Source: Halorussus limi (GTDB lineage: Archaea > Halobacteriota > Halobacteria > Halobacteriales > Haladaptataceae). Taken from it: 64,000 bases of DNA. The translations under genes were made by a program, and so were the position numbers. Below are positions 802 through 50,707 of this stretch, in pieces. Where the stretch lies: assembly GCF_023238205.1 (NCBI RefSeq), contig NZ_CP096662.1, positions 62,001 through 126,000 on the forward strand. The letters run 5' to 3'. Under the pieces are notes generated by a model. That model did no database searches. It had not been told where the DNA came from and worked only from the letters and a program-made list of their open reading frames with translations. The stretch's first letter is position 1. Each line of letters begins with the position of its first letter.

Positions 802-824
802 GGGCTACGGTCTCGCGTGGAGTG

Positions 825-852
825 TTTATCGGCGCCGAAAGGCGTGCAGCGC
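825..852 (+). promoter_or_regulatory. TATA-like box plus GC palindrome (shared promoter motif)
   Basis: TTTAT at 825-829 is followed by a GCGC/GCGC arm pair (832-835 and 849-852) around a core containing GAAAGGCGTGC. This is a weaker member of the motif family seen upstream of many small genes here. It serves the gene at 880. Confidence 0.45.
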
Positions 853-879
853 GCGACAGCGTGCGCGGCGTGACTCACT

Positions 880-6205: not shown

Positions 6206-6679
6206 CGCTCGCCGCTGCCGCCCTCCGCGTCGCTTGCGACCGACCATTCCGGGCGTGCGGGCGCTCTCCACACCGCCCGCGCCCGTTCCGGGCTAAAATA
6301 AATCTGGTCTCGACGCCAGCGGGTATCCCCGTCGGTTGCGCCCCTTGCGGGCTTTCGCGTTCCAGCGCTTGGTGCCGCTGCGCGCGGCGAGCCACCCCGC
6401 GGGCTCGCCGTGCTCCCGACAGTCGCCCTGGACACGGTCCCGCGCATCGGGCCGGACACGAGCGAGCATATCCCGCTGGACGCTTGCTCCGGGCGGGTCG
6501 GCGCGCGGTTCTGGTTGGGTGACCTTCCTTTGGCGCTCTCGCTCGCGCCCCAGGGGGCGCTCACGAAGGCGCGAGCGAGAGCGCGTAGATGGTTCTGTCG
6601 GGCGTTGTCGTCGAAGAACCGCGATGTTGCAGCATCGCGGTGTCGGGCGCGTGAGCGCCTTCAGGTCTTGGTGAGACCA
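6206..6679 (+). promoter_or_regulatory. Cassette A: conserved structured GC-rich leader
   Basis: This noncoding stretch shares blocks with 59709-60108. They are a 50-nt block at 6206-6255 (one mismatch), a 23-nt identical block at 6486-6508, a perfect 17-bp inverted repeat (6533-6549 with 6568-6584, 18-nt loop), and three short hairpins just before the ATG: 6619-6640, 6646-6659 and 6664-6678. An AT-rich CTAAAATAAAT near 6292 may be the TATA box, which would give a leader of about 350 nt. Stems differ between the copies by paired changes, supporting RNA structure. Confidence 0.75.
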
Positions 6680-8143: not shown

Positions 8144-8298
8144 ACTAACCTACTGGCAGTACTACTACAGAAAAGTACGTCTAATTAGTCCCCACTTCGA
8201 GGAGTGTCCAACTCTATCGAGATGAGGGACACCGCAGTAACTCAAGTACTGTCGTCTGAGCCACAATCCAGCTGAATCCATATTCGTACTCGATAGCG

Positions 8299-8325
8299 TT
8301 TATTGACCCCTCGATAGGTGAGGGG
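8299..8325 (+). promoter_or_regulatory. TATA-like box plus GC palindrome upstream of TFB
   Basis: TTTATT at 8299-8304 is followed by CCCCTC (8307-8312), loop GATAGGT (8313-8319) and GAGGGG (8320-8325). This is a clear member of the shared promoter-palindrome family, placed between TATA box and expected transcription start. Confidence 0.6.
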
Positions 8326-8364
8326 CGCGCCGAACTGGCGAGTTCCCTGAACACGGTGAGAACG

Positions 8365-9324
8365 ATGGCAACCAGAGACATCTACGAAAGCGGATTCGAC
8401 GAAGACGTCCGAACGGAATCAAGTGCGAACCAGTGTCCCGAGTGCGACGGCCGGGTCACCACGAACGCGGTCGAAACAGTCTGCGAGGACTGTGGGCTGG
8501 TCATCAACGAGCAGCGTATCGATCACGGGCCGGAGTGGCGGGCGTACGACGACGAGGAGTGCGAACGAACCGGCGCCCCACTTACTGCGGCTCGCCACGA
8601 TCGCGGCCTGTCGACGGAAATCGGTTACGGCACCGACGCGAACGGGAACGAACTCTCCGGACAGAAGCGACGGCGACTCGCCCGGATGCGCCGTGAGCAG
8701 ACCCGAGGTCGCTGGCGATCGAAAGCGGAACGGAATCTCGCACACGGCTTGGGCGAGGTGCGCCGCTTAGCAAGTGCCCTCGGCCTCTCCGATTCGGTTC
8801 ATGACCAGGCGTGTCAGCTCTTCCGGAGCGCCCAGAACGAGGATCTGCTTCGTGGCAGGTCCATCGAGGCCATCGCCGCGGCCAGCGTGTACGGAGCCTG
8901 CCGGTGCAACGGCCTCTCGCGGTTGGTAGGCGAGGTCAGTGAGATGGCCCGCGTCGCGGAGTCGCGAGTCACGAATGCGTACAAGGTGCTGAACGAAGAG
9001 TTGGGGCTCCCTGCCGAGCCCGTCTCCCCCAGTATGTTCGTGCCGCGACTCGCCTCGGACCTCGAGTGTCCGGACAAGATCCGTCAACGGGCCCGAACGC
9101 TCGCGGAGCAGGCCGAGGAGCACGGCGTCACAACGGGTGTCCATCCGGCTGGGTTCGCAGCGGCTTGTCTCTACAAGGCCGGTCGCGAAGAAGGCCGATG
9201 GCTGACGCAAAGTGACGTCGCCGAGTCCGGGAACGTCACGCCAACAACTGTCCGGACGCATCACCAGACACTAGAGGAACAAGTAGCCCGACAACGCCCC
9301 TGTACAAATACGGCCGTTAGATAA
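8365..9324 (+). CDS. tfb: Transcription initiation factor B (TFB)
   Basis: The 319-residue protein has the N-terminal zinc ribbon (C-P-E-C ... C-E-D-C-G-L-V-I), a B-finger linker (G-P-E-W-R-A-Y-D), and two cyclin-like repeats covering the rest. It recruits RNA polymerase to TBP-bound promoters. Haloarchaea carry several TFBs that direct different gene sets. ATG 8365 (M-A-T-R-D-I-Y-E) is the usual TFB start; an ATG 9 nt earlier is possible. Its own promoter carries the shared palindrome, so it may belong to that regulon. Confidence 0.93.
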   Translation: MATRDIYESGFDEDVRTESSANQCPECDGRVTTNAVETVCEDCGLVINEQRIDHGPEWRAYDDEECERTGAPLTAARHDRGLSTEIGYGTDANGNELSGQKRRRLARMRREQTRGRWRSKAERNLAHGLGEVRRLASALGLSDSVHDQACQLFRSAQNEDLLRGRSIEAIAAASVYGACRCNGLSRLVGEVSEMARVAESRVTNAYKVLNEELGLPAEPVSPSMFVPRLASDLECPDKIRQRARTLAEQAEEHGVTTGVHPAGFAAACLYKAGREEGRWLTQSDVAESGNVTPTTVRTHHQTLEEQVARQRPCTNTAVR

Positions 9325-11946: not shown

Positions 11947-12020
11947 TAGACACACTCAGTCCCACAGCTACCCGCAGCCAGAGATGTTTCTCTGCGCCGT
12001 GAATCGGCGAGGCGCTTCAG

Positions 12021-12209
12021 ATGGACCCACGCAACACACCCGGATATCGACTGCACCGCTCACTCACCAATCTCAACCGCATCGAGACTACCGGACTCGA
12101 CGACGCAGATCAAGAGCGAATCGAGGCAGCGAGGACACTCCTCCAGAACGTGAGTCTGCTCTCTCACCTGCAACACAGCGGGAACGCCGATACACAGGTC
12201 GAGTCCTGA
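12021..12209 (+). CDS. Small helical protein
   Basis: This 62-residue helical protein (L-H-R-S-L-T-N-L-N-R-I-E) is of unknown family. It looks like the many small accessory proteins of this replicon and lies downstream of an inverted-repeat site, which may control it. Coding status rests on length and haloarchaeal amino-acid composition only. Confidence 0.45.
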   Translation: MDPRNTPGYRLHRSLTNLNRIETTGLDDADQERIEAARTLLQNVSLLSHLQHSGNADTQVES

Positions 12210-12251: not shown

Positions 12252-12280
12252 GTTTATTGCCCCCCAAAAGGGGTGCGGGG
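12252..12280 (+). promoter_or_regulatory. TATA-like box plus GC palindrome
   Basis: TTTATT at 12253-12258 is followed by CCCC and GGGG arms with an AAAAGGGGTGC-like core up to 12280. It precedes the ATG at 12303, which is the start of a gene now broken by a TnpB element. Confidence 0.55.
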
Positions 12281-12302
12281 TAGAGATACCCGAGGACAAC
12301 AG

Positions 12303-12344: not shown

Positions 12345-13670
12345 CAACAAAGGTGAATCACTGATGAACGACGCTCCACGACGCACGGTACGAATTAAAC
12401 TCGACGTACCCGGAGAACGTCGTGGCGACTTACATCAGACCAAGACTCAATTCCTCCACTGCGCTAACCGAATGAGCGAATGGGCGTGGCGGTACGACGA
12501 TTACTGTATCACCAGCAAGAGCAGGGCCGAAGAGCCTCTGTACGACGAGTTGCGGGAGGAAACCGACCTCACCGCAAATCTCGTTCAGAAAGGTATTCGT
12601 CGCGCTATCGAAGCCGTCACGGGCGGCGTCGAGAAATTGAAGCAGGGCGAGAAGACCAGCCAACCCAAATTCGACTCTTGGAGCATCGTGTACGATAAAC
12701 GCTCCGCGACGTTCAACGACGACCATGCCACGCTCTCCACCCCAAACGGCAGAGTCTCTGCCGAATACGTTCTCCCACCTGAAAATGAGCGAGAGGACAC
12801 GCCATTCGGACGCTACTACGAGAGTGACAACTGGAATGTGTCAAGGGCCACGCTCCAATACGACGAAAACGAGGATACGTTCTACCTGCACGTCACGCTG
12901 AAAAATCCCGACTATGGGAGTGACGGAGCGGAACGCCAAGAAAGCGAGTCACGTGATGATGCCCCCGAGAACGGAGTGGTTCTCGGCGTGGACCTAAACG
13001 TGACTGGCGCGTTCGCCGTCACCTCCACAGCCGAGTCCATCGGCAGTGCAGACTTCCTCACCCACAAACGCGACCAGTACGATCAACGCCGTGCCTGCCT
13101 ACAACAGACGGGTACTCGGTCGGCCGTTCTCACGATTCAGTCCATTGGTAGTCAGTTCAGCGAGTGGTCATTGGACTGGCTCCACAACCGTGCCAACGAC
13201 CTCATCGAAGAAGCCGGTGATGCGGATGTAGACGGGATTATTTTCGAGGATCTTACCCACATCCGCGAGAGCATTGCGAACGGCAGCAAGTTCCAGCAAT
13301 GGGCCTACGCGAAGTTCGTGGAACTCGTTGAGTACAAGGTTGAGTCCACTGAGTTGTTCGTAGACTTCGTGAACCCAGCGTACACGAGTCAACGTTGCTC
13401 ACATTGTGGATGTACCCACAAGGATAATCGCGACGACAAGCAGTTTGAGTGCCAGTCATGTAGGTATGAAGTGAACGCTGATTACAACGCGGCGAAGAAC
13501 ATTGCAAACCGATACTGCGGGTATATCCATTGCGGGCAAAAGTCTCGCGGTGGATGGGCCACCAGTCAACTGGCCCTCAAGTCAGGGACGCTGAACGTGA
13601 ACGGTGAGTACACGCCTTCCGCCTTGCGCGGATAGAGCGGGAGTCCACTGACAAGTCTCAGGGCTTGACC
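12345..13670 (+). mobile_element. Solo TnpB element of the IS200/IS605 superfamily
   Basis: The element holds only tnpB, with no tnpA. The right end near 13650-13670 has a short hairpin (CTCAGGGCTTGACCCAGAG), as expected for the transposon end and guide-RNA region. Boundaries are estimated from the flanking gene fragments. Confidence 0.6.
12364..13635 (+). CDS. tnpB: TnpB RNA-guided nuclease (IS200/IS605)
   Basis: This 423-residue TnpB has RuvC-like motifs: V-L-G-V-D-L-N-V (first Asp), I-I-F-E-D-L-T-H-I-R-E (Glu), and a zinc ribbon C-S-H-C ... C-Q-S-C followed by N-A-D-Y-N-A-A-K-N-I-A (third Asp). TnpB cuts DNA guided by an RNA from the element's right end. It is about full length and looks intact. 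It is closely related to 25933-27249. Confidence 0.9.
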   Translation: MNDAPRRTVRIKLDVPGERRGDLHQTKTQFLHCANRMSEWAWRYDDYCITSKSRAEEPLYDELREETDLTANLVQKGIRRAIEAVTGGVEKLKQGEKTSQPKFDSWSIVYDKRSATFNDDHATLSTPNGRVSAEYVLPPENEREDTPFGRYYESDNWNVSRATLQYDENEDTFYLHVTLKNPDYGSDGAERQESESRDDAPENGVVLGVDLNVTGAFAVTSTAESIGSADFLTHKRDQYDQRRACLQQTGTRSAVLTIQSIGSQFSEWSLDWLHNRANDLIEEAGDADVDGIIFEDLTHIRESIANGSKFQQWAYAKFVELVEYKVESTELFVDFVNPAYTSQRCSHCGCTHKDNRDDKQFECQSCRYEVNADYNAAKNIANRYCGYIHCGQKSRGGWATSQLALKSGTLNVNGEYTPSALRG

Positions 13671-18392: not shown

Positions 18393-18500
18393 CCCGGGAT
18401 CCGATACCTTGTTCCCTCCACTTACCGATTTAGCCGCCCCAATTTCAGTACTCATCCCGAATAAAGAAGCCTCGCTAGCAACTACTGGTAGAGTTGTTCG

Positions 18501-18522
18501 TCCCCCGGGAGGGGTGCGGGGC
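18501..18522 (+). promoter_or_regulatory. GC palindrome of the shared promoter family
   Basis: CCCCC and GGGG arms flank a GGGAGGGGTGC core; the upstream box (TTGTTC) is weak. It precedes the ATG at 18559 of a broken DUF6735-like gene. Confidence 0.45.
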
Positions 18523-18558
18523 GATCCAGTCGCGGTCGCCCCGTGAGGTGATTGCTCA

Positions 18559-18606: not shown

Positions 18607-19806
18607 ACCCACCCCGTGGATCAAGCCCCGGGGCTTCCTGCTTCAACGACGCGCTTTGCATCCACAACCTCTCGCTGAGGTGTGAACGTAGGGAGCGCAG
18701 TCTGCACAGGCGTTGATTCGGAGCGTCCCGCTCCTATCTGTTGAAGTCCTCGACTGAGAATATTCTTTGTCGCGTTGAGATCACGGTCTTCGGTATGCCC
18801 GCACGCTGGACACGAGTGCTCGCGCACCCAGATTGGTTTGACTGTTTCGACACCACAAACTGCGCACTCTTTTGTCGTCCCTTCTGGCTCGACTAAAACA
18901 ATATGCGTGCCGTGCAGGTCGGCTTTGTACTCCAGCAGGTCAAGAAACCTCGTCCATGCGGCGTCTTGTTTGTTTTTAGCATTCTGGCTGGTCTCCAGCA
19001 TCGGCTTCACATCCAAGTCTTCGACAGCCACAACATCGTACTTTGTGACAACCCACGTCGTGAGTTTGTGCTGGTAGTCCAGCACCTTGCGCTTAATTTC
19101 ACGTTTCGCTTTGGCAACGTTCTGCCGTTGGTTCTCCCATTTGGCAGAGCCGTGTTTTTTCCGAGCAAGTTTTCGCTGTTCGCGTGCGTAGCGGTCGTAC
19201 TCATCGGACAACTCCAGCGTATCCACAGACAGATTCTCGGATGTGTGGATGTAGCTGGTGATGCCGAGATCAATTCCAACACAGTTTCCGGGTTCAATCT
19301 CACTTAGTGGCGGTTTCTCTGGTGTGTCCTCCACGGTTGTTACGAGTGAGACGAACCACTCACCGGTTGGCTCTTTTTTGAGGACTACTTCGTCAATGGC
19401 CTCTGCTGGTGGTACTGCGCGTTCTGCTCGGAGTTTGAACCAGCCAATCTTTTCGAGTCGGAATCGCACGAGTCGGTCGTCGCCCGTGTTGTGATCCACG
19501 TTCCAGCGACGGGGTTGATTGTACGACACCGACCGGAATTCACCAGTTCCTTGCCAGTTCAACCGCCCAGTGTTGTAGCCTTCATCGCGGCGCTCTTGTA
19601 GCGTTTCTATGTCGTCGTGAATCTGGCTGATGGCCTGTTGTGCGGCATGTTGTGATGGGTCCGCAAACGTCGGCCAGCGGTCTGTCCATTCTGTGAGCCT
19701 GTCGTGCTGGTCGTAGTCAGATGGTCGCTGACCGGAGGCTGTTTGATAGTAGTCTCGGACGGCATGGTTACGAATCTGGCGGAGGATGTCGATGTGTCGC
19801 CACGCC
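18606..19806 (-). mobile_element. Solo TnpB element, left end missing
   Basis: The right end (on the left here, 18606-18640) has a hairpin with AAGCCCCGGGGCTT. The other end stops inside tnpB's start, fused to host sequence. No tnpA is present. Confidence 0.65.
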
Positions 19807-19829
19807 TCGCTCGCCACTACCTCCACCAC
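18621..19829 (-). CDS. tnpB: TnpB, 5'-truncated and fused to host sequence
   Basis: This 402-residue TnpB keeps RuvC motifs G-I-D-L-G-I-T, V-A-V-E-D-L-D-V and zinc ribbon C-A-V-C ... C-P-A-C with D-R-D-L-N-A-T-K-N-I-L. The N-terminus is odd: the usual first 15-20 residues are replaced by M-V-E-V-V-A-S-E, which is the reverse strand of the interrupted host gene. Homology starts at W-R-H-I-D-I. It may still be translated but lacks its natural start and left end. Confidence 0.75.
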   Translation of the reverse strand: MVEVVASEAWRHIDILRQIRNHAVRDYYQTASGQRPSDYDQHDRLTEWTDRWPTFADPSQHAAQQAISQIHDDIETLQERRDEGYNTGRLNWQGTGEFRSVSYNQPRRWNVDHNTGDDRLVRFRLEKIGWFKLRAERAVPPAEAIDEVVLKKEPTGEWFVSLVTTVEDTPEKPPLSEIEPGNCVGIDLGITSYIHTSENLSVDTLELSDEYDRYAREQRKLARKKHGSAKWENQRQNVAKAKREIKRKVLDYQHKLTTWVVTKYDVVAVEDLDVKPMLETSQNAKNKQDAAWTRFLDLLEYKADLHGTHIVLVEPEGTTKECAVCGVETVKPIWVREHSCPACGHTEDRDLNATKNILSRGLQQIGAGRSESTPVQTALPTFTPQREVVDAKRVVEAGSPGA

Positions 19830-20180: not shown

Positions 20181-20206
20181 TTCGGTCTGCTTCGTGGCCG
20201 CTGCTG

Positions 20207-20235
20207 TTTTTCAGGGGCAGGAATGGGTGAGCCCC
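20207..20235 (+). promoter_or_regulatory. TATA-like box plus GC palindrome
   Basis: TTTTT at 20207-20211, arms GGGGC (20214-20218) and GCCCC (20231-20235), core GGAATGGGTGA. It precedes the gene at 20255. Confidence 0.55.
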
Positions 20236-20254
20236 GCCGTAGGCTCGTGATCCG

Positions 20255-20671
20255 ATGACCACACACGACGACCCGTTTCACGACTGCGAGTTGGATCCCG
20301 AGGCGATCCTCGGGACGTACACGTACGAAGACGTCCTGTTCACCGACGAGACGGAAACCCCGGTGAACGTGCTCACCGGCAAGACACCGGCACATTCGCA
20401 AGCAACCGTCGAGGAAGCGAAGGAGTTCGCTGCCAGTATCGACACGGAGACGCCCCAGATCGCGCTTCCCGCTTCCGTCGAGTCACAGGTCGAAACACAG
20501 AGCAAGCCCTACACGGCGGCCGCGTTCTTCCACTTCAAGGCGACAGGCTCGCTCGAACGCCACCACGCCTACCACGCCGCCTACGAGGCGGAGGCGTTCG
20601 CGGTCGACTTCGAGGCTGACTACGCGTCGGGCGACCTGACCATCACTGTCGAACGAGCGGACGAATCCTGA
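20255..20671 (+). CDS. Conserved acidic accessory protein
   Basis: This 138-residue acidic protein has a recognisable natural start and end but no known domain. The middle A-A-A-F-F-H-F-K-A-T-G-S-L-E-R-H may be a conserved core. It is the first of four same-strand genes (20255-22101), three of which have the same promoter palindrome. Function unknown. Confidence 0.65.
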   Translation: MTTHDDPFHDCELDPEAILGTYTYEDVLFTDETETPVNVLTGKTPAHSQATVEEAKEFAASIDTETPQIALPASVESQVETQSKPYTAAAFFHFKATGSLERHHAYHAAYEAEAFAVDFEADYASGDLTITVERADES

Positions 20672-20692: not shown

Positions 20693-20724
20693 GTTTTTTG
20701 AGCGCCGGCGATGGGTGCCGGCGC
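20693..20724 (+). promoter_or_regulatory. T-run plus perfect 8-bp palindrome
   Basis: Six T at 20693-20698, then GCGCCGGC (20702-20709), loop GATGGGT and GCCGGCGC (20717-20724). The hairpin is identical to the one at 23150-23172. It precedes the gene at 20776. Confidence 0.65.
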
Positions 20725-20775
20725 ATCTGGAGCGACCAACGACACCTGGTGCGTCGGCGTTTCGAGGTGTTCGAA

Positions 20776-21652: not shown

Positions 21653-21684
21653 GTTTTTCGGCCGGGCACGAGGTGGTGGCCCGG
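21653..21684 (+). promoter_or_regulatory. TATA-like box plus GC palindrome
   Basis: TTTTT at 21653-21657, arms CCGGGC (21662-21667) and GCCCGG (21679-21684), core ACGAGGTGGTG. It precedes the gene at 21706. Confidence 0.55.
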
Positions 21685-21705
21685 GACGGCCGGGTTAGTC
21701 AACCA

Positions 21706-22101
21706 ATGAGTCTCGAAGTACTTGACCGACACAGTGAGGCACTGTTCGAGTTCCTCTGGTGCCCCGTCTGCGGGCAGGAGGTCTTCACTCACATCCCCTT
21801 CGAGGGGGTGTTCTGCAAGAACTGCAACACCCAGGTTGAACTCCAAGAATCCCGAGAAACACGCGGCTACGAGGAGGCCGTGCTCGCCTGCTTCGATTCA
21901 ACCACGACCTGGAACCTCCACGTCGACGAGAAGCTACGTCGCGACCTGCCTGATGGGTCGGCACGAGTGAAGATTCTCGGCGCACCGGGCGCCTACAAGG
22001 TCGACTGGTGGAGTCCAGAGCCGGGTGAGGACTGGGAACCTGTGGAGCGTGCAGAGTTCGACGACGTCGAGGAACCATCAGAGGTGTCGCACCTGGCGTA
22101 G
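21706..22101 (+). CDS. Zinc-ribbon protein (DUF7567-like)
   Basis: This 131-residue protein has C-P-V-C-G-Q-E and C-K-N-C-N-T-Q at about residues 19-43, one zinc ribbon, followed by an acidic domain (Y-K-V-D-W-W-S-P). ATG 21706 was chosen because the earlier frame runs through the promoter palindrome. It belongs to the set of small genes sharing that promoter. Confidence 0.7.
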   Translation: MSLEVLDRHSEALFEFLWCPVCGQEVFTHIPFEGVFCKNCNTQVELQESRETRGYEEAVLACFDSTTTWNLHVDEKLRRDLPDGSARVKILGAPGAYKVDWWSPEPGEDWEPVERAEFDDVEEPSEVSHLA

Positions 22102-22986: not shown

Positions 22987-23143
22987 ACCCATACCTTTGG
23001 GCTGGAACAGCATCAGTTTCCGAGCAAGGACCCCACCCGACTGCAGCCTTGCGAATTTCGGAATCCATTTTTAACCGGGTTTAAGTTATCCAGTGACAAC
23101 CCTTCGTCGAGATTCCAGCGACTCCCTCGATTCAGGAGAGGTT

Positions 23144-23172
23144 GTTTCTGCGCCGGCGATGGGTGCCGGCGC
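23144..23172 (+). promoter_or_regulatory. TATA-like box plus perfect 8-bp palindrome
   Basis: TTT at 23144-23146 is followed by GCGCCGGC (23150-23157), loop GATGGGT and GCCGGCGC (23165-23172), identical to the palindrome at 20702-20724. It precedes the gene at 23193. Confidence 0.65.
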
Positions 23173-23192
23173 ACCCGCGTCGGCGGTGATCG

Positions 23193-23765
23193 ATGTCGAC
23201 ACGAAGTCAACTCCGATTCATCCAACGGAGTGAGACCGCAGGCGAACAGTCCGATACCGACCGCATCGCACAAATCTACCGCCACTCGGACGGATATCCC
23301 GATAGCGTCCTCCGTGACCTTGTCCAGCTGAAAGAGTTGCTCGACGAGACACGAACAGAGCGCGGGCCTGCGTACGCCGCTGCCCAGTTCCTGTTCCTCG
23401 ACACGCTCTCGACGATGACCCTCTACGTGGACGAAGGGCGTGATCGGAGCATCCACGCTGACCAACCCTCGGAACTCCTCGAGCCGGACAATATGGAGCA
23501 CCTCGACCAGCCGATGTTCCTGCTCGGACACGGCGTCGAGAACCCAGCCGACGGCATCCACGGCGACGAGGAGTACCTCTACGTCGTCGAACTCCCGACC
23601 CGGAACCCGTTCGAGGAGCCGTCCGAGTGGACGGTCAAGGTGAGTGGTCATTCCGCGTTCCCCCGGTGGGATGGCCCGAGCGAGGAAGCCTTCGAGCGGG
23701 CCAGCTGGCAGTTCCACGGCCCGCTTGAGCACGCGCTCGAAGAGCTGGTCGCTGAGCCGGCGTGA
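23193..23765 (+). CDS. Conserved accessory protein
   Basis: The 190-residue acidic protein has a conserved-looking N-terminal region (I-Y-R-H-S-D-G-Y-P-D-S-V-L-R-D-L) and Y-L-Y-V-V-E-L-P-T in the middle. No motif identifies a function. It converges on the Mrr-like gene 14 nt away and has a motif-family promoter. Confidence 0.7.
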   Translation: MSTRSQLRFIQRSETAGEQSDTDRIAQIYRHSDGYPDSVLRDLVQLKELLDETRTERGPAYAAAQFLFLDTLSTMTLYVDEGRDRSIHADQPSELLEPDNMEHLDQPMFLLGHGVENPADGIHGDEEYLYVVELPTRNPFEEPSEWTVKVSGHSAFPRWDGPSEEAFERASWQFHGPLEHALEELVAEPA

Positions 23766-25143: not shown

Positions 25144-25206
25144 TCCGATATACCTGGACAGTACGTTGCAACTGTCAAATACGTTGCCGAACGCAGCCCC
25201 GCCCTG

Positions 25207-25235
25207 TTTTTGAACCCCCGAGAGGGGTGCGGGGG
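25207..25235 (+). promoter_or_regulatory. TATA-like box plus GC palindrome
   Basis: TTTTT at 25207-25211, arms CCCCC (25215-25219) and GGGGG (25231-25235), core GAGAGGGGTGC. It precedes the gene at 25266. Confidence 0.6.
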
Positions 25236-25265
25236 TGATCAAACGAGCCTCCCGCGAACCAACCT

Positions 25266-25670
25266 ATGAGTGGAATCAGCGACCCACGTTCGCGCGTACA
25301 GTCACGGACCTCGGCTGATCCCGACGTCATCTACGTCGGTTACCGTCGTCGAGGCCGCACCATCGTCGAGAAGCAATCGGACCAAGAACAGCTCACGCCA
25401 GATCGGAGTCTCGAGCTGGCGAATCACAGTCCTTCGGGCTTTGAATGGGGATATGGTGGGAGTGGGCCGGCGCAACTCGCACTCGCCCTCCTGCTCGATT
25501 ACACTGACAATGAGGAGGTGGCACTGGCGGAGTACAAGGCGTTCAAGACCGAAGTGGTGAGCCAGCTAGAGTGTACAGAACCCGACAACTGCTGGCGACT
25601 CACCGGACACGAGATAGATACAACCCTTCGTGAGATAGTCGACGATCCAGTCGCACCGTCCGTCAACTAA
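25266..25670 (+). CDS. DUF6166-like protein
   Basis: The 134-residue protein contains G-F-E-W-G-Y-G-G-S-G-P-A-Q-L-A-L-A-L-L, the conserved core of DUF6166, a family of unknown function common on plasmids and mobile elements in haloarchaea. A motif-family promoter precedes it and the broken DUF7389-like gene follows by 19 nt. Confidence 0.78.
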   Translation: MSGISDPRSRVQSRTSADPDVIYVGYRRRGRTIVEKQSDQEQLTPDRSLELANHSPSGFEWGYGGSGPAQLALALLLDYTDNEEVALAEYKAFKTEVVSQLECTEPDNCWRLTGHEIDTTLREIVDDPVAPSVN

Positions 25671-25689: not shown

Positions 25690-25791
25690 ATGTCAGAACA
25701 CACCCAGCAACCTCGTACGAGCGCAGAATCGCCGCAGAGTGAGCGTCAGGCACCAACCGAGTACGTCGAGCGAAGCGATGTCGGCGTCTCA
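25690..25791 (+). pseudogene. 5' part of a DUF7389-like gene, cut by TnpB insertion
   Basis: The frame starts M-S-E-H-T-Q-Q and ends E-Y-V-E-R-S-D-V-G-V-S where the TnpB element begins. The rest of the gene is at 27265-27438. An open frame through the element would fuse it to TnpB, but that is read-through of element DNA. Confidence 0.75.
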
Positions 25792-27264
25792 CAGAACTCC
25801 AAGGAGGAAGCCAACGGCTTTAGCCGTGATAGAAATCCGACAACCCTCTCCACAAACCAAGAGCGGTCGCAGGTCAACTCCCCATTTTTAATCCAAGTTA
25901 TTATAAAAATTAGTCTAATATGTGAACCACGGATGGAGGTGATTCGCACTGTCCAAGTCAAACTCGACGTCCCCGACAAACGGTGCGAGGACCTCCATCA
26001 AACCAAAGACCAGTTCCTCCACTGTGCGAACACTACAGCAAAGTGGGCGTGGAGACACCCGGACGATTACTGTATAACCTCAAAACAGAAAGCTGAGAAA
26101 GCCCTCTACGAACGACTCCGTGGCGAGACGAAGTTGACCGCGAACCTCGTACAGAAGGGGATTCGACGCGCGATCGAGGCCACGAAAAGCGGTGTCGCTC
26201 GCCTCAAAAAAGGTGAGAACACGAGTCAACCACACTTCGATGCGTGGAGCGTCGTCTATGACAAACGCTCTGCGACGTTCCACCGCGACCACGTCTCCCT
26301 TTCAACGGTGAACGGTCGTGTTGAGTGCGACTACGTGATTCCTAACAATCCAGATGGAACACCGATTGGCGAGTATCTACTGAACGAGGACTACGAGTTT
26401 CGAATGTCCACGTTGCAGTACGACCGCCATTCAGAGTCGTTTTATCTCCATGCGCGGATGCGCCGAGTCGAACACGACGAGCAAGAACAGTCTACAACTC
26501 CTTCTTCCGACGTTCATCAGAACGTGTCGCGTCCTGAGGACGCCAAGCACCGAACAGTCCTTGGCGTGGACCTGAACGTGGACGGCTCGCTCGCGGTAAC
26601 TTCAACGGGCGCATTCATCGGAAACGCCAACGAGATGAATCATCGACGCCGAGAGTTCGAGAAGACTCGCGGTTCGATGCAACGGACGGGGACGCGATCG
26701 GCGCACCTGGCGATTCAGTCGATGAACGACCGCGAACATCGCTGGATGCAAGACAAATTGCATCAGGCTTCGACTCAGATCCTCGAAGAAGCTCGTGACC
26801 GCGGCTGTACACATATCGCGTTCGAGAACTTGACAGATATTCGCAAGCGGATGGCTGGTGCGAAGCGATTCCACGCGTGGGCGTTCCGTCGTCTGCACCA
26901 ATACGTCGAATACAAAGCAAAGATGTTTGGCATCGAGGTTGAGCAGGTGAGTCCGGCGTACACGTCTCAGCGGTGTTCATCGTGTGGGTTTACCCACGAG
27001 ACTAATCGACGGTCGAAGCACCAGTTCGCGTGTCAGAAGTGCGCGTACGAACTGAACGCGGATTATAACGCGAGTAAGAACATTGCTTGGAAACTGATGA
27101 AGCGACTCCACTCGGGGCAGACGTCTTCGAGTGGAGGCGCACCCTGTCAGTGTGCGCTGACGTCAGGGACGTTGAACCTGAATGGCGAGTTCCATGCCTA
27201 CTCTATTACAGAGTCAGAAGGGGAGTCCACTGACAAGCCCACGGCTTAGGTCGTGGGTTACTGA
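25792..27264 (+). mobile_element. Solo TnpB element inside a DUF7389-like gene
   Basis: The element is defined by the break in the host frame: G-V-S (25791) joins to L-T-V-K-L (27265). The right end has a hairpin with CCCACGGCTTAGGTCGTGGG (27238-27257). No tnpA is present. Both junctions can be placed almost to the base. Confidence 0.8.
25933..27249 (+). CDS. tnpB: TnpB RNA-guided nuclease
   Basis: This 438-residue TnpB has V-L-G-V-D-L-N-V, I-A-F-E-N-L-T-D-I-R and zinc ribbon C-S-S-C ... C-Q-K-C with N-A-D-Y-N-A-S-K-N-I-A, so all RuvC-type acidic residues look present. ATG 25933 was chosen because the family starts M-E-V-I-R-T-V-Q-V-K-L-D-V-P; the longer frame is host plus element end. Close relative of 12364-13635. 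Confidence 0.88.
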   Translation: MEVIRTVQVKLDVPDKRCEDLHQTKDQFLHCANTTAKWAWRHPDDYCITSKQKAEKALYERLRGETKLTANLVQKGIRRAIEATKSGVARLKKGENTSQPHFDAWSVVYDKRSATFHRDHVSLSTVNGRVECDYVIPNNPDGTPIGEYLLNEDYEFRMSTLQYDRHSESFYLHARMRRVEHDEQEQSTTPSSDVHQNVSRPEDAKHRTVLGVDLNVDGSLAVTSTGAFIGNANEMNHRRREFEKTRGSMQRTGTRSAHLAIQSMNDREHRWMQDKLHQASTQILEEARDRGCTHIAFENLTDIRKRMAGAKRFHAWAFRRLHQYVEYKAKMFGIEVEQVSPAYTSQRCSSCGFTHETNRRSKHQFACQKCAYELNADYNASKNIAWKLMKRLHSGQTSSSGGAPCQCALTSGTLNLNGEFHAYSITESEGESTDKPTA

Positions 27265-28150: not shown

Positions 28151-28187
28151 CAAGGAATTTCTTCGACCGGGAGTGGCCTAGCAGCTG

Positions 28188-28216
28188 TTTTTGTCGCCTT
28201 GAGAGGGCAGAGGCGA
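28188..28216 (+). promoter_or_regulatory. TATA-like box plus GC palindrome
   Basis: TTTTT at 28188-28192, arms TCGCCT (28194-28199) and AGGCGA (28211-28216), core TGAGAGGGCAG. It precedes the small gene at 28222. Confidence 0.6.
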
Positions 28217-28221
28217 ACAAA

Positions 28222-28443
28222 ATGAGCGACTCATCGAATCTATCCGTCGAACCAGACGGTCTCACACCGGAACAGCGTCTCGAACCACCAAACACCCGAC
28301 TCATCAACGCTGGTATCGCGACTATTCATAACATGGAGACACTCCGAGCCTGCGTCGCCTACGAGAACGCGAATCAGCAGCGCATCCAGATCCTCCGCCG
28401 ACTTGAACAGCGGGCCAGCAAAATCCGCTCACAGGACGACTAA
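28222..28443 (+). CDS. Small paralogous helical protein
   Basis: The 73-residue protein matches 45681-45896 over most of its length: P-N-T-R-L-I-N-A-G-I-A-T-I, M-E-T-L-R-A-C-V-A-Y-E-N-A, Q-I-L-R-R-L. Two copies with the same promoter palindrome show it is a real gene family. Function unknown. Confidence 0.7.
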   Translation: MSDSSNLSVEPDGLTPEQRLEPPNTRLINAGIATIHNMETLRACVAYENANQQRIQILRRLEQRASKIRSQDD

Positions 28444-28479: not shown

Positions 28480-29815
28480 ACTGCCTCGGGGTCAAGCCCG
28501 AGGCTTCCCGTGGGTTAGTCGGACACTCCCACGCGACCATCGGCCTGATAGCCTCGAACAGTCGGGTGGGTCACGGTCGGGGCGTCCACGGCCCCCGATG
28601 CCTGCCGTCGCACCTTCCGAACAACGGGAAGGCTGTTGAGAACAGGCACATTTCGATTCAGTTCCTCCAATCCTTTCTTCGCGATATTCACTGCCGCGTT
28701 CCGGTCAGCGTGGTCTTGCCGACCACACGCTTTGCAATTGAACCGCTTCTTCCGACGATTCGACCGAGCCGTATGCTCACACCCCGTAAAAGAACACGCT
28801 TGACTGGTGTAAGCCGGGTCGATGTCATCGCTCGGAATCCCTTCGAACGCCGCTTTGTACGCAACGAAGGAACGGAGTTTGTGAAACGGCAACGAGTGCA
28901 ACCGACGGTTCATCCGAGTGCCGTAGTCAATCGAGTCTCGCATGTGCTTGAGGTCTTCAAACACAACAAGCGGCGACTCGAAGTGCTGAACCCACTCCAC
29001 GGTTCGTCGGGATACTTGGTGAAGTTGGTCGTGAATGTATCGTTCTTCCTTGTCCTCGAACACGCAGTCAAACGCTGTCTGCCCCGCGTTCTGCATTCGT
29101 TTCCGCATCGTGAAGTATCGGTGGCGCTCTTGCTTGATTTCCGGGTATCAATGACCACGGAGTCAATGATGTCGTCTTCGTGGAGCGCAGCGAGTGCTAT
29201 ACAGTCCTCGTTGATGTCCACTCCCACGACGGTTTGAGCGTCGTGTTTGTCTTGAACTGTAGCTTTGAGATGGGTGACGTTGACGTGGAGTTCGTGGTTG
29301 CCGTTACGAGCCATCGCTTCAGCGGTTCCGACTCGCCATTCGTCACTTTCGAGGGCTTGTTTGAGGAGTTCGAGGGTATCGGGTGCGCCACGAAGCGTGC
29401 CGTCCACCGGGTTGTACGGCTTAGCACTAATACGGTAGTGTATCTCGCTGTCTTTGAGTGTGAGGGTGTAGCCTTCAGTGAAGTTCATCCGCAACGGGTA
29501 CGGTCCAGTTTTCTCGTGACTGGGCATATTGTAGTCGTCGCGGTCGTAGAACTGCTGAAGTGCATCAAATGCCTTGGCGATGATGCGTTGGGTGGTGTTC
29601 TTTACAAGGTCAGCTTCGTCTTCAAGACGTGGCGAGATGTCGTCCCAGTCCACCCCATCTTTCGCTAATTGAATGGCCTGGTTGTACACCCATCGGGCTT
29701 CGTGGTACGCGTCGGAGAGAAGTCGCTCTTTCTTGGGTTGGAGTTGGAAGACGAGTGTCTTCGTGAGCGACTTCTCCATACCTTAATCGACGGACCCAGG
29801 TGTTGTAAAGGTATA
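28480..29815 (-). mobile_element. Solo TnpB element with a damaged tnpB
   Basis: The right end (28485-28512) has a hairpin (CCTCGGGGTCAAGCCCGAGG). The left end is estimated near 29815. Only tnpB is present and it is frameshifted, so the element is probably inactive. Confidence 0.6.
28515..29779 (-). pseudogene. tnpB: TnpB with a one-base frameshift
   Basis: Two frames overlap: the N-terminal part from 29779 (M-E-K-S-L-T-K-T-L-V-F, V-V-G-V-D-I-N-E-D) and the C-terminal part to 28515 (V-V-F-E-D-L-K-H-M-R, C-S-F-T-G-C-E-H ... C-K-A-C-G-R, H-A-D-R-N-A-A-V-N-I-A). Near 29145 the reading changes: one missing G would turn D-T-R-K-S-S into D-T-R-E-I-K-Q-E-R-H and join both halves. All catalytic motifs remain, split between frames. 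Confidence 0.8.
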
Positions 29816-31428: not shown

Positions 31429-31454
31429 CGCCGGAGGGTAACAGCTGGGGATAG

Positions 31455-31482
31455 TTTTTCTCCCCCAAAGGGGTGCAGGGGA
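31455..31482 (+). promoter_or_regulatory. TATA-like box plus GC palindrome
   Basis: TTTTT at 31455-31459, arms TCCCC (31461-31465) and GGGGA (31478-31482), core CAAAGGGGTGCA. It precedes the 35-codon frame at 31511. Confidence 0.55.
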
Positions 31483-31510
31483 ATCAAACGTACCCCCAGA
31501 GGCGAACCAA

Positions 31511-39354: not shown

Positions 39355-40812
39355 ATGTCTGTGTTGCCTGATTATGATCTCGTGATTCTCGGCGGTGGGA
39401 CAGCCGCGTTCGCTGCCATCACCGAAGCAAGTGGCCGAGGACTCTCGACGGCTATGGTGAATACAGGGTTACCGCTCGGCGGCACCTGCGTGAACGTCGG
39501 CTGTGTCCCCAGCAAGCATCTGCTCGCGGTAGGCGACCAGGCAGCCACTCCACAGGAGAACCCATTCAAGGCGGTCCAGTACAGCGACGGCGAACCGACC
39601 GTCGACTGGGAAGCCGCGCTGGACGGCACCGACGAACTCGTTGAACGGTTCCGGCAGGAAAACTACGTCGACGTCGCCGAGCACTTCGAGACCGACATCT
39701 ACGAGGGCTACGGCCAGCTGGTCGACGACACGACCATCGAGGTCGTCGACGGCGCCGACGAGGGCGCCCGGATCACCGGGGAGAAGGCACTCGTTGCGAC
39801 CGGCAGTTCACCGTGGGCGCCACCCATCGACGGCCTCAACGACGTCTACTACTACACGAGTGAAACCATCCTCGAGGAACGGAACCTCCCCGAGAGTATC
39901 GTGATGCTCGGTGGCGGTTACATCGCGTTGGAGTGGGGCCAGATCCTCCACCGCGTCGGTGTCGACGTGACCATCCTCCAGCGCTCCGACCGCGTTCTCT
40001 CGGGGATGGAAGGGCAACTCGGTCGCGAGATGCAGCGTGCGTTCGAGGACCAAGGCATCGAAGTAATCACCGGCAACGACTTCCAGCGCGTTCGCGCACC
40101 GGCTGGCGACGGTGGAGCCGAAGCGATGCAATCAGGCGTCGCCGTCGAAACAACCGTCGACGGCACCGAGCAGACAGTTACCGGCGACGCGCTGTTCGTC
40201 GCGGCCGGCGTCCAGCCGAATAGCGAGGGCATCGGCCTGGAGACGGTGGGGGTCGAAACGAACGACGACGGCACGATCCACGTCGACGAGCAGTTCCAAA
40301 CGACGAACCCGGACGTGTACGCCGCCGGCGATGTGATCGGTGAGCCTGAACTGGAGACGGTCGCCGCCAAGGAAGGCAACCACGCCGTCAAGAACGCGTT
40401 CGGCAACGAGGGCGTCAGCATCGACTACAGTGCGGTTCCGGCAGTCGTGTTCACCGATCCCGAAGTCGCTGCGGTCGGGACGACCGAACTGGAGTACATG
40501 ACCGAGCACGGGACCTGTTCGTGCCGCACTATCCAGATGGCGGACGTCCCGCGGGCGAAAGCCGTCAAGAACATTGACGGCCTCGTCCAGGTCGTCAAAC
40601 ACCACGAGACCGACGAGATCGTCGGCGTCCACATGGTTGGTCCACGTGCCGCCGACATGATCATGGAAGCGACGCTCGCCGTGAAGTTCGGCCTGACCGT
40701 CGACGGCATCATCGACACTGTCCACCCATTCCCCACGTTCAGCGAGGCGTTCAAACACGCCTGCCAGGCGTTCCGCCGGGACACCTCGACGATGAGCTGC
40801 TGTGTCGAATAG
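39355..40812 (+). CDS. merA: Mercuric reductase MerA
   Basis: The 485-residue flavoprotein has the FAD loop L-G-G-G-T-A-A-F-A, redox pair C45/C50 in G-G-T-C-V-N-V-G-C-V-P-S-K, and the C-terminal vicinal pair C482-C483 that marks MerA. It reduces Hg(II) to Hg(0) with NADPH. It lacks the N-terminal HMA domain present in many MerAs. Divergent ArsR and CC-motif membrane genes complete a mer-type unit. Confidence 0.93.
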   Translation: MSVLPDYDLVILGGGTAAFAAITEASGRGLSTAMVNTGLPLGGTCVNVGCVPSKHLLAVGDQAATPQENPFKAVQYSDGEPTVDWEAALDGTDELVERFRQENYVDVAEHFETDIYEGYGQLVDDTTIEVVDGADEGARITGEKALVATGSSPWAPPIDGLNDVYYYTSETILEERNLPESIVMLGGGYIALEWGQILHRVGVDVTILQRSDRVLSGMEGQLGREMQRAFEDQGIEVITGNDFQRVRAPAGDGGAEAMQSGVAVETTVDGTEQTVTGDALFVAAGVQPNSEGIGLETVGVETNDDGTIHVDEQFQTTNPDVYAAGDVIGEPELETVAAKEGNHAVKNAFGNEGVSIDYSAVPAVVFTDPEVAAVGTTELEYMTEHGTCSCRTIQMADVPRAKAVKNIDGLVQVVKHHETDEIVGVHMVGPRAADMIMEATLAVKFGLTVDGIIDTVHPFPTFSEAFKHACQAFRRDTSTMSCCVE

Positions 40813-40842
40813 AACCGCCATTCCACCAACACTATCCAACTT

Positions 40843-40947
40843 ATGACCGAACTCGAGACTACGATGATTCCCGCACGGAAACCCACCAACGAAGAACGAA
40901 CAGCCGGTGGCTACACCACTCAGAACGAGGGGTTCACCGATGAGTAA
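40843..40947 (+). CDS. Small protein (34 residues) between the two reductases
   Basis: M-T-E-L-E-T-T-M-I-P-A-R-K-P-T-N-E-E-R-T ... G-F-T-D-E then TAA. The last 8 nt overlap the start of the next gene (ATGAGTAA), so it would be coupled to it. The start is 30 nt after merA's stop. Coding status is inferred from the overlap and composition. Confidence 0.5.
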   Translation: MTELETTMIPARKPTNEERTAGGYTTQNEGFTDE

Positions 40948-42325
40948 CGAGCACGACTACGACCTGCTCGTCCTGGGAGGCGGGATGGCCGGCCTCCCGG
41001 TCGCGATGAAGAGTGCGTACTCCGGAATGAAAACGGCCCTCGTTGAGGAGGACCTCCTCGGCGGAACCTGTCTGAATCGCGGCTGTATCCCCACGAAGAC
41101 AATGCTACGAAGTGCGGAAGTCGCGAATCTCGCCCGCCGCAGTGAAGAGTTCGGCATCAATATCGACGGCGAGATTACTGCCGACATGGACACCATCGTC
41201 CAGCGGAAAGACGATATCGTCGAAAGCATCCGCAAGGGTGCCTACGACAACGTCGACGAGAACGAGAACATCGACCTCCTGGAGGAACACGGTGTCTTCG
41301 AATCGGCCCACGAACTCCGCGTTGGAGACCGGACACTCACGGCCGACCGGATCGTCATCAACACGGGTGCCCGCCCGCTGCGACCACCGATCGACGGCCT
41401 CGACGAGGTCGAAGTGCTCGACAGCACCGACATGCTGTTTCTCGACGAGGTTCCGGAGTCGCTGGTCGTGATCGGCGGCGGCTACGTCGGCGCCGAGTAC
41501 GCGCAAATGTACAGTCGGTTCGGAGCAGACGTTACCATCTTCCAGCGCGGTGACCGGCTCCTTCCTCGTGAGGAACCGGACGTAAGCACCGTGATCGAAG
41601 ACGTGTTCACCGACGAGGAGATCACCGTTCATACCGAGACATCCGTGACGACGCTCGTGCCGGACGGTGACGACATTGTGGTCGAGGCCGACGGGCCGGA
41701 CGGACCCGTCAAGACGCCGGCATCGGAAGTCTTGCTCGCCGCGGGGCGTCAGCCGAACACAACTGGAATCGGGCTCAACGAGGCGGGTGTCGAAACCGAC
41801 GAGCGCGGGTTCGTCGCAACCGACGACCGCTTTGAGACGACCGCCGACGGCGTCTACGCCATCGGCGACGTGAGCGGCTCGCCGATGTTCACTCACTCCG
41901 CTCGCGACGATGCGGACCTGCTGTACCGCCACCTCGCGAAGGACGAGGAGATCAGCACCGAGGGCCGAACCGTCCCGTGGGCGGTGTTCACCGACCCGCA
42001 GGTCGGCCACGTCGGGTTAACCGAACAGGAAGCATGTGACAAAGGGTACGAGGTGGGCATCGGCCGTCAGGACTTCGCCGACCAGGGCAAGCCGAAGGCA
42101 CTCGGTGAGACCGAGGGATTCGTCAAACTCGTCACGGATGCCGACACGGATGAACTACTCGGAGCGCACGTCGTGGGCGAACAGGGTGCTGAAATCGTCC
42201 ACGAACTCGTCCTCGCCATCGAACTCGGCGCGACCGCCGAACAGATCGCCGAGACGATGCACATCCACCCCACGCTCCCAGAGATCATCAACTCCGCTGC
42301 TGGTGGTGCTCATAAGCCGTCGTAA
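40940..42325 (+). CDS. Pyridine nucleotide-disulfide oxidoreductase (dihydrolipoamide dehydrogenase-like)
   Basis: The 461-residue flavoprotein has L-G-G-G-M-A-G, redox pair C44/C49 in G-G-T-C-L-N-R-G-C-I-P-T-K, and C-terminal H-I-H-P-T-L-P-E for the catalytic His. It lacks MerA's C-terminal Cys pair, so it is either a dihydrolipoamide dehydrogenase or another disulfide reductase. Coupled to the small gene before it and following merA, it may recycle thiols during metal stress. Confidence 0.85.
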   Translation: MSNEHDYDLLVLGGGMAGLPVAMKSAYSGMKTALVEEDLLGGTCLNRGCIPTKTMLRSAEVANLARRSEEFGINIDGEITADMDTIVQRKDDIVESIRKGAYDNVDENENIDLLEEHGVFESAHELRVGDRTLTADRIVINTGARPLRPPIDGLDEVEVLDSTDMLFLDEVPESLVVIGGGYVGAEYAQMYSRFGADVTIFQRGDRLLPREEPDVSTVIEDVFTDEEITVHTETSVTTLVPDGDDIVVEADGPDGPVKTPASEVLLAAGRQPNTTGIGLNEAGVETDERGFVATDDRFETTADGVYAIGDVSGSPMFTHSARDDADLLYRHLAKDEEISTEGRTVPWAVFTDPQVGHVGLTEQEACDKGYEVGIGRQDFADQGKPKALGETEGFVKLVTDADTDELLGAHVVGEQGAEIVHELVLAIELGATAEQIAETMHIHPTLPEIINSAAGGAHKPS

Positions 42326-42383
42326 CGCGTCTTGAAGAAAGTCACCATATCTCAGAGCAGGCGATATTTCGCCCCGAAATCGC

Positions 42384-42938
42384 TCACTCGGCTGTCGATA
42401 AGAGACCGTCGAGCTCCCCGGTTTCGCTCAGGTCGATGAGCGCGCGATTGAGCAGTTCCCGAACGACGAACTCCTCGTAGTGCTGGGTTTCGCAGTATTC
42501 ACACGGCTTCATCTCCTTGGCTACGGCCTCGACCTCGTCGCCGTGTTGCTCGGCGAGGGTCTCGATCAGCGCAGCTAGCTCTTCACGAGCCGTGTCCTGC
42601 GCCGAAGCAAGTTGCTCTCCACTACTTTCTGGAAGGTCGTACGAGAAGACCCGCGTATTCGACTTGTAGTACTTCCGTGTCCCACCACCAGCTTCCTCGA
42701 GCCGTGCAATCTCCACCATCCCGGCGTCCTTCAGGACGTTCACGTGGTGGCGCACCGTCGTTTCCGCCTTTTTTTCGCTGCGACGATGCAACTCGTCGTG
42801 AATCTCCTCGATCGTCATTTCCTCAGCAGCGAGCATGTCGAGGATCTTCGCCCGGACGTCGTTCTCCAGCGCCTTCGCTTTCTCCGGGTCCGTCGTCACA
42901 ACTTCGCGGATCGGCACATCGGATTCGAGGAGCGCCAT
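42384..42938 (-). CDS. ArsR-type winged-helix regulator with C-terminal CxxC
   Basis: From ATG 42938 the 184-residue protein has an N-terminal winged helix (V-R-A-K-I-L-D-M-L, H-H-V-N-V-L-K-D-A-G-M-V) and a C-terminal part with C-E-Y-C-E-T-Q-H-Y, a likely metal site. It is divergent from the P1B ATPase, so it probably controls that gene. An alternative start is 42950. Confidence 0.75.
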   Translation of the reverse strand: MALLESDVPIREVVTTDPEKAKALENDVRAKILDMLAAEEMTIEEIHDELHRRSEKKAETTVRHHVNVLKDAGMVEIARLEEAGGGTRKYYKSNTRVFSYDLPESSGEQLASAQDTAREELAALIETLAEQHGDEVEAVAKEMKPCEYCETQHYEEFVVRELLNRALIDLSETGELDGLLSTAE

Positions 42939-43069
42939 TCTTGTGACCATGTAAGCGGACGACGACAGTAAGAGTAACGCCACTCTCTCGATAGCAGTAT
43001 TAGTGATTCGATACCGCTATAACTCTCGTCGTAACGGTTATCCGCATTGCTCGGTAACTAGTGACCACG

Positions 43070-45548: not shown

Positions 45549-45644
45549 ACGTGCCTGTAAACACTCGCGTGGGATGACCATTACGGTAACCGTTGTATCG
45601 GTTTTATCTCCATTAGAGATGGGACGGTATCGTCCGGAGAGTTG

Positions 45645-45674
45645 TTTATGTCGGCCCCATAGGGGTGGAGGCTC
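45645..45674 (+). promoter_or_regulatory. TATA-like box plus weak GC palindrome
   Basis: TTTAT at 45645-45649, then GGCCCCATAGGGGTGG with the GGGGTGG core. Arms are short, but the position before the gene at 45681 matches the family. Confidence 0.45.
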
Positions 45675-45680
45675 TTCGAG

Positions 45681-45896
45681 ATGGGGACCACTGACGACAA
45701 AGAGAGTGACGAATTCCCTCCAGAGAAGCGTCTGGAAGCACCGAACACGCGCCTGATCAAGGCCGGTATCGCGACGATTCCGGATATGGAAACCCTCCAG
45801 GAGTGCGTTGCCTACGAGAACGCCCACCAGAATCGAACGCAGATTCTGCGCCGGCTCAAGTGGAAGGCCGAAGAGCTGCGTGAAGATGAGGGGTAA
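45681..45896 (+). CDS. Small paralogous helical protein
   Basis: The 71-residue protein is a paralogue of 28222-28443: P-N-T-R-L-I-K-A-G-I-A-T-I, M-E-T-L-Q-E-C-V-A-Y-E-N-A, Q-I-L-R-R-L-K. The stop is 10 nt before an inverted repeat of the TTAACCAACA family. Confidence 0.7.
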   Translation: MGTTDDKESDEFPPEKRLEAPNTRLIKAGIATIPDMETLQECVAYENAHQNRTQILRRLKWKAEELREDEG

Positions 45897-48502: not shown

Positions 48503-48725
48503 GTCAGTTAGGAGTCGGCCCAGAGCCGTCGGCTATGAGTCGCACGAGAACGAGTGAGTAAGGGAATATGCTCATGATTTCCCTAGCCATGAATCCACTG
48601 GACTGAAAGGAAAGTCATCGGGCTGAAAAGAGATTGTTACCCCCGATATGTACAACGCCTAGGTATCTATCAGCGGTTCCACAGTCAATTCTAAATAAAG
48701 AAATCGAGCTACCAGCTACTGAAAG

Positions 48726-48756
48726 TTTTTCAGCGCCCCCGGAGGGGCGGAGGCGC
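48726..48756 (+). promoter_or_regulatory. TATA-like box plus GC palindrome
   Basis: TTTTT at 48726-48730, arms GCGCC (48733-48737) and GGCGC (48752-48756), core CCCGGAGGGGCGGA. It precedes the gene at 48774. Confidence 0.6.
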
Positions 48757-48773
48757 GTTCTGACCTCCGTCGA

Positions 48774-49202
48774 ATGATGACTGACCGCTATCTCACGACA
48801 GTCCTCGAGGAAGCCGAGCACGTTGCCGAGCAGCACAACCAGATCGCTCGAACGACAGACAACCAAGCCCACGAGTACCTCCGATACGCCGTCCTCCGGG
48901 TGCTTGAAGGCGAGGCAGAACACCTCCCAGCAGACTGGACGCCGATCGACGGTGTGACCGTCGGCTACGGGAGCGACGAGGCGATGTTCGACAGCTGGGG
49001 CTCCAGCGAAGACTGGTGGGAGACTGTCCCGCCGCAGGAGGCGTGTACCCGGTTCCGGGTGTTCTTCCCGGACAACCACCAGACGGTTCCCCGCGACATC
49101 GTCGACATGATGACCGCGCTCGGTACCTGGCGGGTTTGGACCGGGAGTGCAGCCGCGTGCGGCTCCTACGACCATCGCGAGCGCCGTGAGGTCAATCTTT
49201 GA
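48774..49202 (+). CDS. Conserved acidic accessory protein
   Basis: The 142-residue acidic protein has no motif I can name (H-V-A-E-Q-H-N-Q-I-A-R-T near the start, F-D-S-W-G-S-S-E-D-W-W in the middle). It belongs to the group with the shared promoter. Start could be 48774 or the next codon at 48777. A TnpB gene follows. Confidence 0.6.
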   Translation: MMTDRYLTTVLEEAEHVAEQHNQIARTTDNQAHEYLRYAVLRVLEGEAEHLPADWTPIDGVTVGYGSDEAMFDSWGSSEDWWETVPPQEACTRFRVFFPDNHQTVPRDIVDMMTALGTWRVWTGSAAACGSYDHRERREVNL

Positions 49203-49366
49203 CAGCGAGAGAATCCTGCCGTTCACGGCGGGCGTGAATCGCGTAAGCTCCGATGAGAACCATTGCGTCAATGCTGGTCTTGAGTCTCCAACGAGATGAT
49301 TGGGTTCTACTTTCACCGTGGTTGGCTGACGTTCAAGTTCCAAACGAGCATATCTGGAAATGGCTG

Positions 49367-50707
<1,341 letters not shown>

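Follow-up and report, generated by a model that had tools for sequence, protein, structure and literature searches.

In haloarchaea, many accessory genes of plasmids, and of chromosomal elements that carry conjugation genes, are headed by a 32-nt DNA element. It consists of a T5 box and a GC-rich hairpin some 20 nt long, and lies almost always on the strand of the type IV secretion gene for VirB6/TrbL. We consider the element a putative single-strand initiation signal heading establishment-type genes, most likely a promoter that would act in single-stranded DNA (ssDNA), and give this reading a probability of about 0.48. The strand lock to the conjugation genes, the covariation of the hairpin arms, a 5' region in which only the element is conserved and a fitting list of downstream genes all point to it. 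The element was characterized in a 64-kb window (bases 62001-126000 of a 168.6-kb plasmid, contig C4) from a haloarchaeon that has a chromosome of 3.58 Mb and four further replicons. DNA resembling the window region was found in 141 haloarchaeal plasmids of PLSDB.

Elements in the window and their downstream genes

A preliminary description of the window listed 12 sites at which a T-rich box is followed by a GC-rich inverted repeat, and this arrangement was found at all 12. Each site has a G and TTTTT or TTTAT (TTTCT at one site), a few bases and then the inverted repeat. A covariance model (R1) was built from 11 of the 12 sites, and the window was scanned with this model without filtering. 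The 11 training sites were rescored at E-values of 1e-6 to 3e-3, as expected of sites on which the model was trained, and the held-out site at 21653 was found weakly (12.1 bits, E 1.1). The listed sites are real, but the list was incomplete, as at least two more elements are present (at 18493 and 11986). A minus-strand match at 6272 was rejected as spurious because it had no gene and its sequence was off-family.

The elements described here are all on the plus strand, and scores are those of R1. The element at 824..855 (22.8 bits) heads a gene for a 96-aa protein of no known function (880-1170), and that at 8298..8329 (25.6 bits), with the sequence CCCCTC-GATAGGT-GAGGGG, heads a TFB gene (8365-9324; TFIIB, E 6e-36). 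The weaker element at 11986..12016 (17.9 bits) heads a gene for a 62-aa protein (12021-12209) whose family has elements in other replicons as well, with a distance of 35 nt in four copies. At 12252..12283 (31.4 bits), a TnpB-like gene (12364) has apparently taken the place of, or split, the element's own gene. Only a short ORF follows the element at 18493..18524 (21.6 bits), one of those absent from the preliminary list; this ORF is probably a remnant of the DUF6735 family, and an identical sequence heads DUF6735 genes elsewhere. The element at 20206..20237 (27.0 bits; arms GGGGC and GCCCC) heads the gene at 20255-20671. Next to it, the element at 20694..20725 (33.6 bits), with the 8-bp stem GCGCCGGC and the loop GATGGGT, heads an MBSP1-like gene ending at 21267, which matched NF051898 partially and below that family's cut-off (E 6e-17). 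An identical stem was found at 23142..23173 (31.1 bits), ahead of the gene at 23193-23765. The divergent element outside the training set (21653..21686) heads a DUF7567 gene (21703-22101; E 3e-68), and the best-scoring one (25206..25237, 36.4 bits) heads a DUF6166 gene (25266-25670; E 4e-29). The elements at 28186..28217 (27.7 bits) and 45644..45675 (30.7 bits) head genes for paralogous small proteins of 73 aa (28222-28443) and 71 aa (45681-45896), which have no known function and belong to a family that recurs in other genera. The element at 31454..31483 (23.3 bits) is followed by what is apparently a truncated gene, a short ORF at 31511, and that at 48725..48757 (29.4 bits) heads a truncated copy of a family of 271-276 aa (48774-49202).

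Five genes that look by eye to be of the TnpB type (12364-13635, 18621-19829, 25690-27249, 28910-29779, and 49253-50707) are scattered among the element-headed genes and apparently interrupt some of them. A cluster at 39355-45334 that resembles, again by eye, a metal- and redox-handling cluster (two flavin disulfide-reductase-like proteins and a heavy-metal P-type ATPase) has no elements heading it.

The earlier proposal that many accessory genes, a TFB gene among them, share a 5' element held well beyond the window. An ORF start was present within the next 160 bases in 147 of 150 copies (the other three had no gene), and the element was spread across the order. The ATG start codon mostly lies 32-92 nt past the box, and this distance is nearly constant within a family (87 for the MBSP1-like genes, 38 for a 99-aa family, and 74 for the ArdC-like genes). 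The families headed by the element include DUF6166, DUF6610, DUF6735, DUF7567, a SWIM zinc finger protein, PCNA, a TFB paralogue, and an ArdC-like protein with an M78 peptidase domain, in which the match to the ArdC domain was weak (E 4e-4, just below the Pfam cut-off). Judged by their domains, some of the headed genes appear to be of the establishment type (ArdC-like, PCNA, and TFB paralogue); most families have no known function. A viral origin was considered and dropped, as the ArdC-like and DUF6166 proteins had no halovirus match in a phage collection. In Haloprofundus, a 99-kb plasmid (PLSDB type MPF_T) has been annotated in full, and there the element-headed genes come after a type IV secretion system (T4SS) cluster that encodes TrbL_3 (E 4e-141), VirB4-like and HerA-like ATPases, and a primase.

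Sequence and fold of the element

In a loop-anchored alignment, three parts were common to the 12 listed sites, namely the box, two inner C-G pairs, and GGGTG or GGGCG (GGGYG) on the loop side. The remaining arm positions varied from copy to copy and kept their complementarity. The dyad of the preliminary description is thus an inverted repeat but not a conserved palindrome, as conservation is limited to those three parts. The arm covariation observed among the 12 window sites was reached by none of 500 shuffles. In copies from other genera, on which covariation was rechecked since R1 had been trained on the listed sites and then extended, the score in an alignment fitted to the model was 0.473 compared to 0.147 after shuffling, and again none of 500 shuffles reached 0.473. 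The score was at most 0.17 once the arms were slid out of register. One stem pair was G-C in 43 copies and C-G in 37, so half-site letters are not invariant. G-T pairs were about as frequent as A-C pairs (24 vs. 26 and 33 vs. 28), both below expectation; because G-T was no commoner than A-C, no clear wobble signal of the RNA type was apparent.

The stems are of 3-11 bp (mostly 5-9) and GC-rich, and contain no TATA or BRE. Best-fit loops were mostly of 5-13 nt in a fit that barred shorter loops and in which the conserved GGGYG occupies the loop side. The stability of the DNA hairpin did not differ between sense and antisense strands (-8.3 vs. -8.2 kcal/mol) and therefore does not indicate the active strand.

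Outside the element, 108 non-redundant copies had no conserved promoter, nor any other conserved feature, between positions -100 and -10, and only weak preferences for C and G were seen from -9 to -2. These copies had no AT peak where the promoter of a transcribed hairpin should lie, no BRE-like conservation upstream of the T box, and no second conserved box 3' of the hairpin; the 5' box is the only one conserved. Haloarchaeal CRISPR repeats are GTTT...GGG-like, and a resemblance to them was dropped because the arms of the element vary.

A second motif, distinct from the hairpin element, is truly palindromic, with invariant arms (TTAACCAACA-N20-23-TGTTGGTTAA, 40-43 bp in total). It occurs at 11906, 45906, 47008, 52969, and 57506 of the window and at position 47755 of plasmid C4 (G000:C4:47755), and one copy is just upstream of the T4SS operon. 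The genome contains 15 copies, all of them plasmid-borne and none chromosomal. An arm of this motif contains GTTGGTTA, which is seven of the eight letters of the NrS-1 priming site TTTGGTTA (PMC8718748). By its sequence the motif is a candidate operator or PrimPol site.

Distribution and orientation relative to conjugation genes

In an R1 scan of the same genome, plasmids C3 and C5 also had copies, and a short row was found on the chromosome (C1:755.5-756.2 kb). The remainder of the 3.58-Mb chromosome had no match at E < 1. The element is not a chance feature, since the additional copies sit on plasmids and on one chromosomal element, the chromosome has no other match, and the arms covary in other genera. 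The chromosomal row adjoins a VirB6/TrbL gene at 760 kb. The surrounding region (C1:736-761 kb) is probably an integrated conjugative element that has hairpin elements, a TrbL_3 gene, and a PrimPol gene of its own, all on one strand. Within the genus, the element was present in 16 of 18 genomes, and in the order it was present in 121 of 293 genomes and 48 of 87 genera (covariance model, E up to 0.01, strict filters). Its carriers are plasmids and chromosomal elements with conjugation genes.

The orientation of the element was compared to that of the VirB6/TrbL (TrbL_3) gene in 12 replicons of several genera, each covered completely or over a large stretch. The two shared a strand for 180 of 185 elements. 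Other genes on these replicons were on the TrbL_3 strand in 661 of 1146 cases (661 vs. 485; Fisher p 1e-32) and neighbors within 3 kb of elements in 287 of 449 (287 vs. 162; Fisher p 1e-22), p values that are indicative because gene strands came from a simple ORF heuristic and the replicons share ancestry, which makes the counts not independent. In the order as a whole, element and TrbL_3 strands agreed on 47 of 52 contigs, and the other five disagreed or were mixed. Within the genus, the gene for the NrS-1-type primase-polymerase obeys this lock too, on 18 of 18 contigs. On a plasmid of a relative (G002:C3), 29 of 30 copies point in one direction, in about seven clusters over 266 kb in which genes are about evenly split between strands. 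The location of the element relative to the T4SS varies, mostly downstream of the operon on plasmids and just upstream of it in the chromosomal elements of the genus, and the orientation is constant. A signal acting on a transferred single strand would be expected to be locked to the polarity of conjugation. A double-stranded promoter, a repressor site and an RNA leader work in either orientation and so give no reason for a polarity of the whole replicon.

A mostly one-strand run of genes on the plasmid (G000:C4:46502-61612) stops immediately ahead of the window's first element. The run codes for the large subunit of exonuclease VII, for T4SS components that include TrbL_3, and for a primase-polymerase of the NrS-1 type, and also contains a 1527-aa ORF. 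On the F plasmid, leading and tra genes share one direction round the circle, and the same arrangement was found here.

Competing explanations and a proposed model for single-strand initiation

The preliminary description had placed a repressor palindrome between a TATA box and the transcription start of a double-stranded promoter. The T-rich box, about 27 bp before the end of the hairpin, has a plausible TATA-to-start spacing, and the element is common to many genes. An operator would keep its half-site letters, yet the arms vary and covary while staying complementary, and a lock to the strand of the T4SS genes is unexpected for a double-stranded operator. With no BRE-like sequence upstream either, we regard this reading as very improbable. 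Placing the hairpin in the 5' leader of an RNA, as the target of an RNA-binding protein or as a Shine-Dalgarno-like GGGGUG in the loop, agrees with a covarying stem with a conserved loop, which is typical of RNA, and with 81 of 108 copies in which the sense hairpin, as RNA, had a small advantage in stability. The loop can pair with the 3' end of 16S rRNA. The lack of a conserved upstream promoter and of an excess of G-U over A-C, the unexplained strand lock, and a gathering search of the window against Rfam that matched no family make an RNA leader unlikely, although less so than the operator.

A little more probable, but still doubtful, is a priming site on the transferred strand from which a plasmid primase would synthesize the complementary strand. 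In many cases the candidate primase is a PrimPol of the NrS-1/pRN1 type, whose gene lies downstream of that for TrbL at a distance of about 10 kb and shares its strand. The helix-bundle domain of this enzyme was on the element strand in all 18 contigs of the genus that contained the domain as well as elements. The NrS-1 polymerase initiates at 5'-GTG-3' and 5'-TTTGGTTA-3' (PMC8718748), and GTG was present at the loop in 77 of 108 elements, but GCG replaces it in 27 of 108. Moreover, priming sites need no place before start codons, synthesis from GTG on the element strand would head away from the gene, and several element-bearing genomes lack an NrS-1-type PrimPol. More weight, within what we still hold to be unlikely, goes to an integron-like cassette site, in which the hairpin would be the ssDNA substrate of a recombinase and units of element and gene would enter the transferred strand, which would fix their orientation. 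Of 1291 segments of BLAST homology between replicons, 212 have a start that lies no more than 8 bp from an element in each of the two partners, where chance would give 3.5. Orthologous pairs of 60-97% protein identity mostly have random sequence immediately upstream of the box, and some junctions at the box are a clean gain or loss of one unit (A|B|C vs. A|C). These homology starts and junctions indicate that the gene units are reshuffled and that the element forms their left edge. However, none of the 1291 right ends was sharp at the next element, an attC-like second conserved box after the hairpin is absent, and the element belongs to the downstream gene, many copies having no element-headed gene upstream. 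Deletion between direct repeats would produce identical A|B|C vs. A|C junctions, and shuffling at the box could come either from recombination of direct repeats or from the hairpin acting as in an integron.

Known systems resemble the element in part. Integron attC sites are likewise ssDNA hairpins of variable sequence that border movable gene units. They have paired R' and R'' boxes, whereas only the 5' box of the element is conserved; the element lies on the 5' side of its gene with a polarity that is replicon-wide rather than array-wide, and its units have sharp starts but not sharp ends. In bacteria, anti-defence genes of the leading region are exclusively on the T-strand, and the Frpo promoters there fold in ssDNA (PMC11541004). 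Frpo/ssi sites of F-like plasmids share with the element a conjugative carrier, early anti-restriction and DNA-handling genes, a DNA structure at the gene start, and a one-strand polarity (PMC11541004), as in the strand agreement with conjugation genes reported above. Frpo is longer and folds into a -35/-10 mimic, and the archaeal element has no double-stranded host core promoter inside its fold and occurs at least a dozen times per plasmid. A duplex this short and GC-rich has no room for TATA and BRE, so the hairpin is no mimic of a double-stranded archaeal promoter and not a structural Frpo. The early promoters of phage N4 are short DNA hairpins in which non-conserved stem bases are free to vary if paired (PMC4496689). 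Like these promoters of the N4 virion RNA polymerase, the element has a variable complementary stem and conserved loop positions directly upstream of a start (PMC4496689), but the N4 promoters have a 3-nt loop and a stem of 5-7 bp. EGeRS1 of the pLS20 family in Bacillus is also repeated, has inverted repeats, and precedes establishment genes including ardC (PMC8708921). It is predicted to be structured in ssDNA or RNA, its mechanism being described as unknown (PMC8708921), and comprises regions of 400-600 bp in bacteria compared to the 32 nt of the archaeal element.

For the single-strand initiation signal, the following model is proposed. The plasmid would enter the recipient as one strand, on which the short hairpin would fold beside the T5 box and mark the start of nucleic acid synthesis, most likely of RNA off the transferred strand. 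This would allow early, strand-specific expression of anti-restriction proteins, clamp, TFB, and related proteins before a complementary strand exists, a task comparable to that of Frpo on the F plasmid or of the N4 hairpin promoters. The polymerase may be the host RNA polymerase with the plasmid TFB or a plasmid enzyme. We infer here that transfer is of ssDNA, which strand moves, that the hairpin folds in vivo, and which polymerases are candidates. Counted against an ssDNA promoter is the spread of elements over most of some replicons (266 kb), beyond the vicinity of one site. The literature searched, which covered a minority of subscription journals and no preprint servers, contained no description of an archaeal single-strand promoter. 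A bolder combined role, which we hold to be rather unlikely, is that the hairpin would be both the first archaeal single-strand promoter and the border at which units of establishment genes are exchanged between conjugative plasmids. If it has both roles, the replicon-wide polarity would be evidence that haloarchaeal T4SS plasmids transfer ssDNA.

To our knowledge, how DNA moves by haloarchaeal type IV secretion (as one strand or two, and by which enzyme) is not settled. A signal that keeps one orientation relative to the conjugation genes throughout a plasmid is evidence of single-strand transfer that is indirect but can be counted. The element also yields a catalogue of some twenty families, mostly of no known function, that are candidate establishment or anti-defence genes of archaea.
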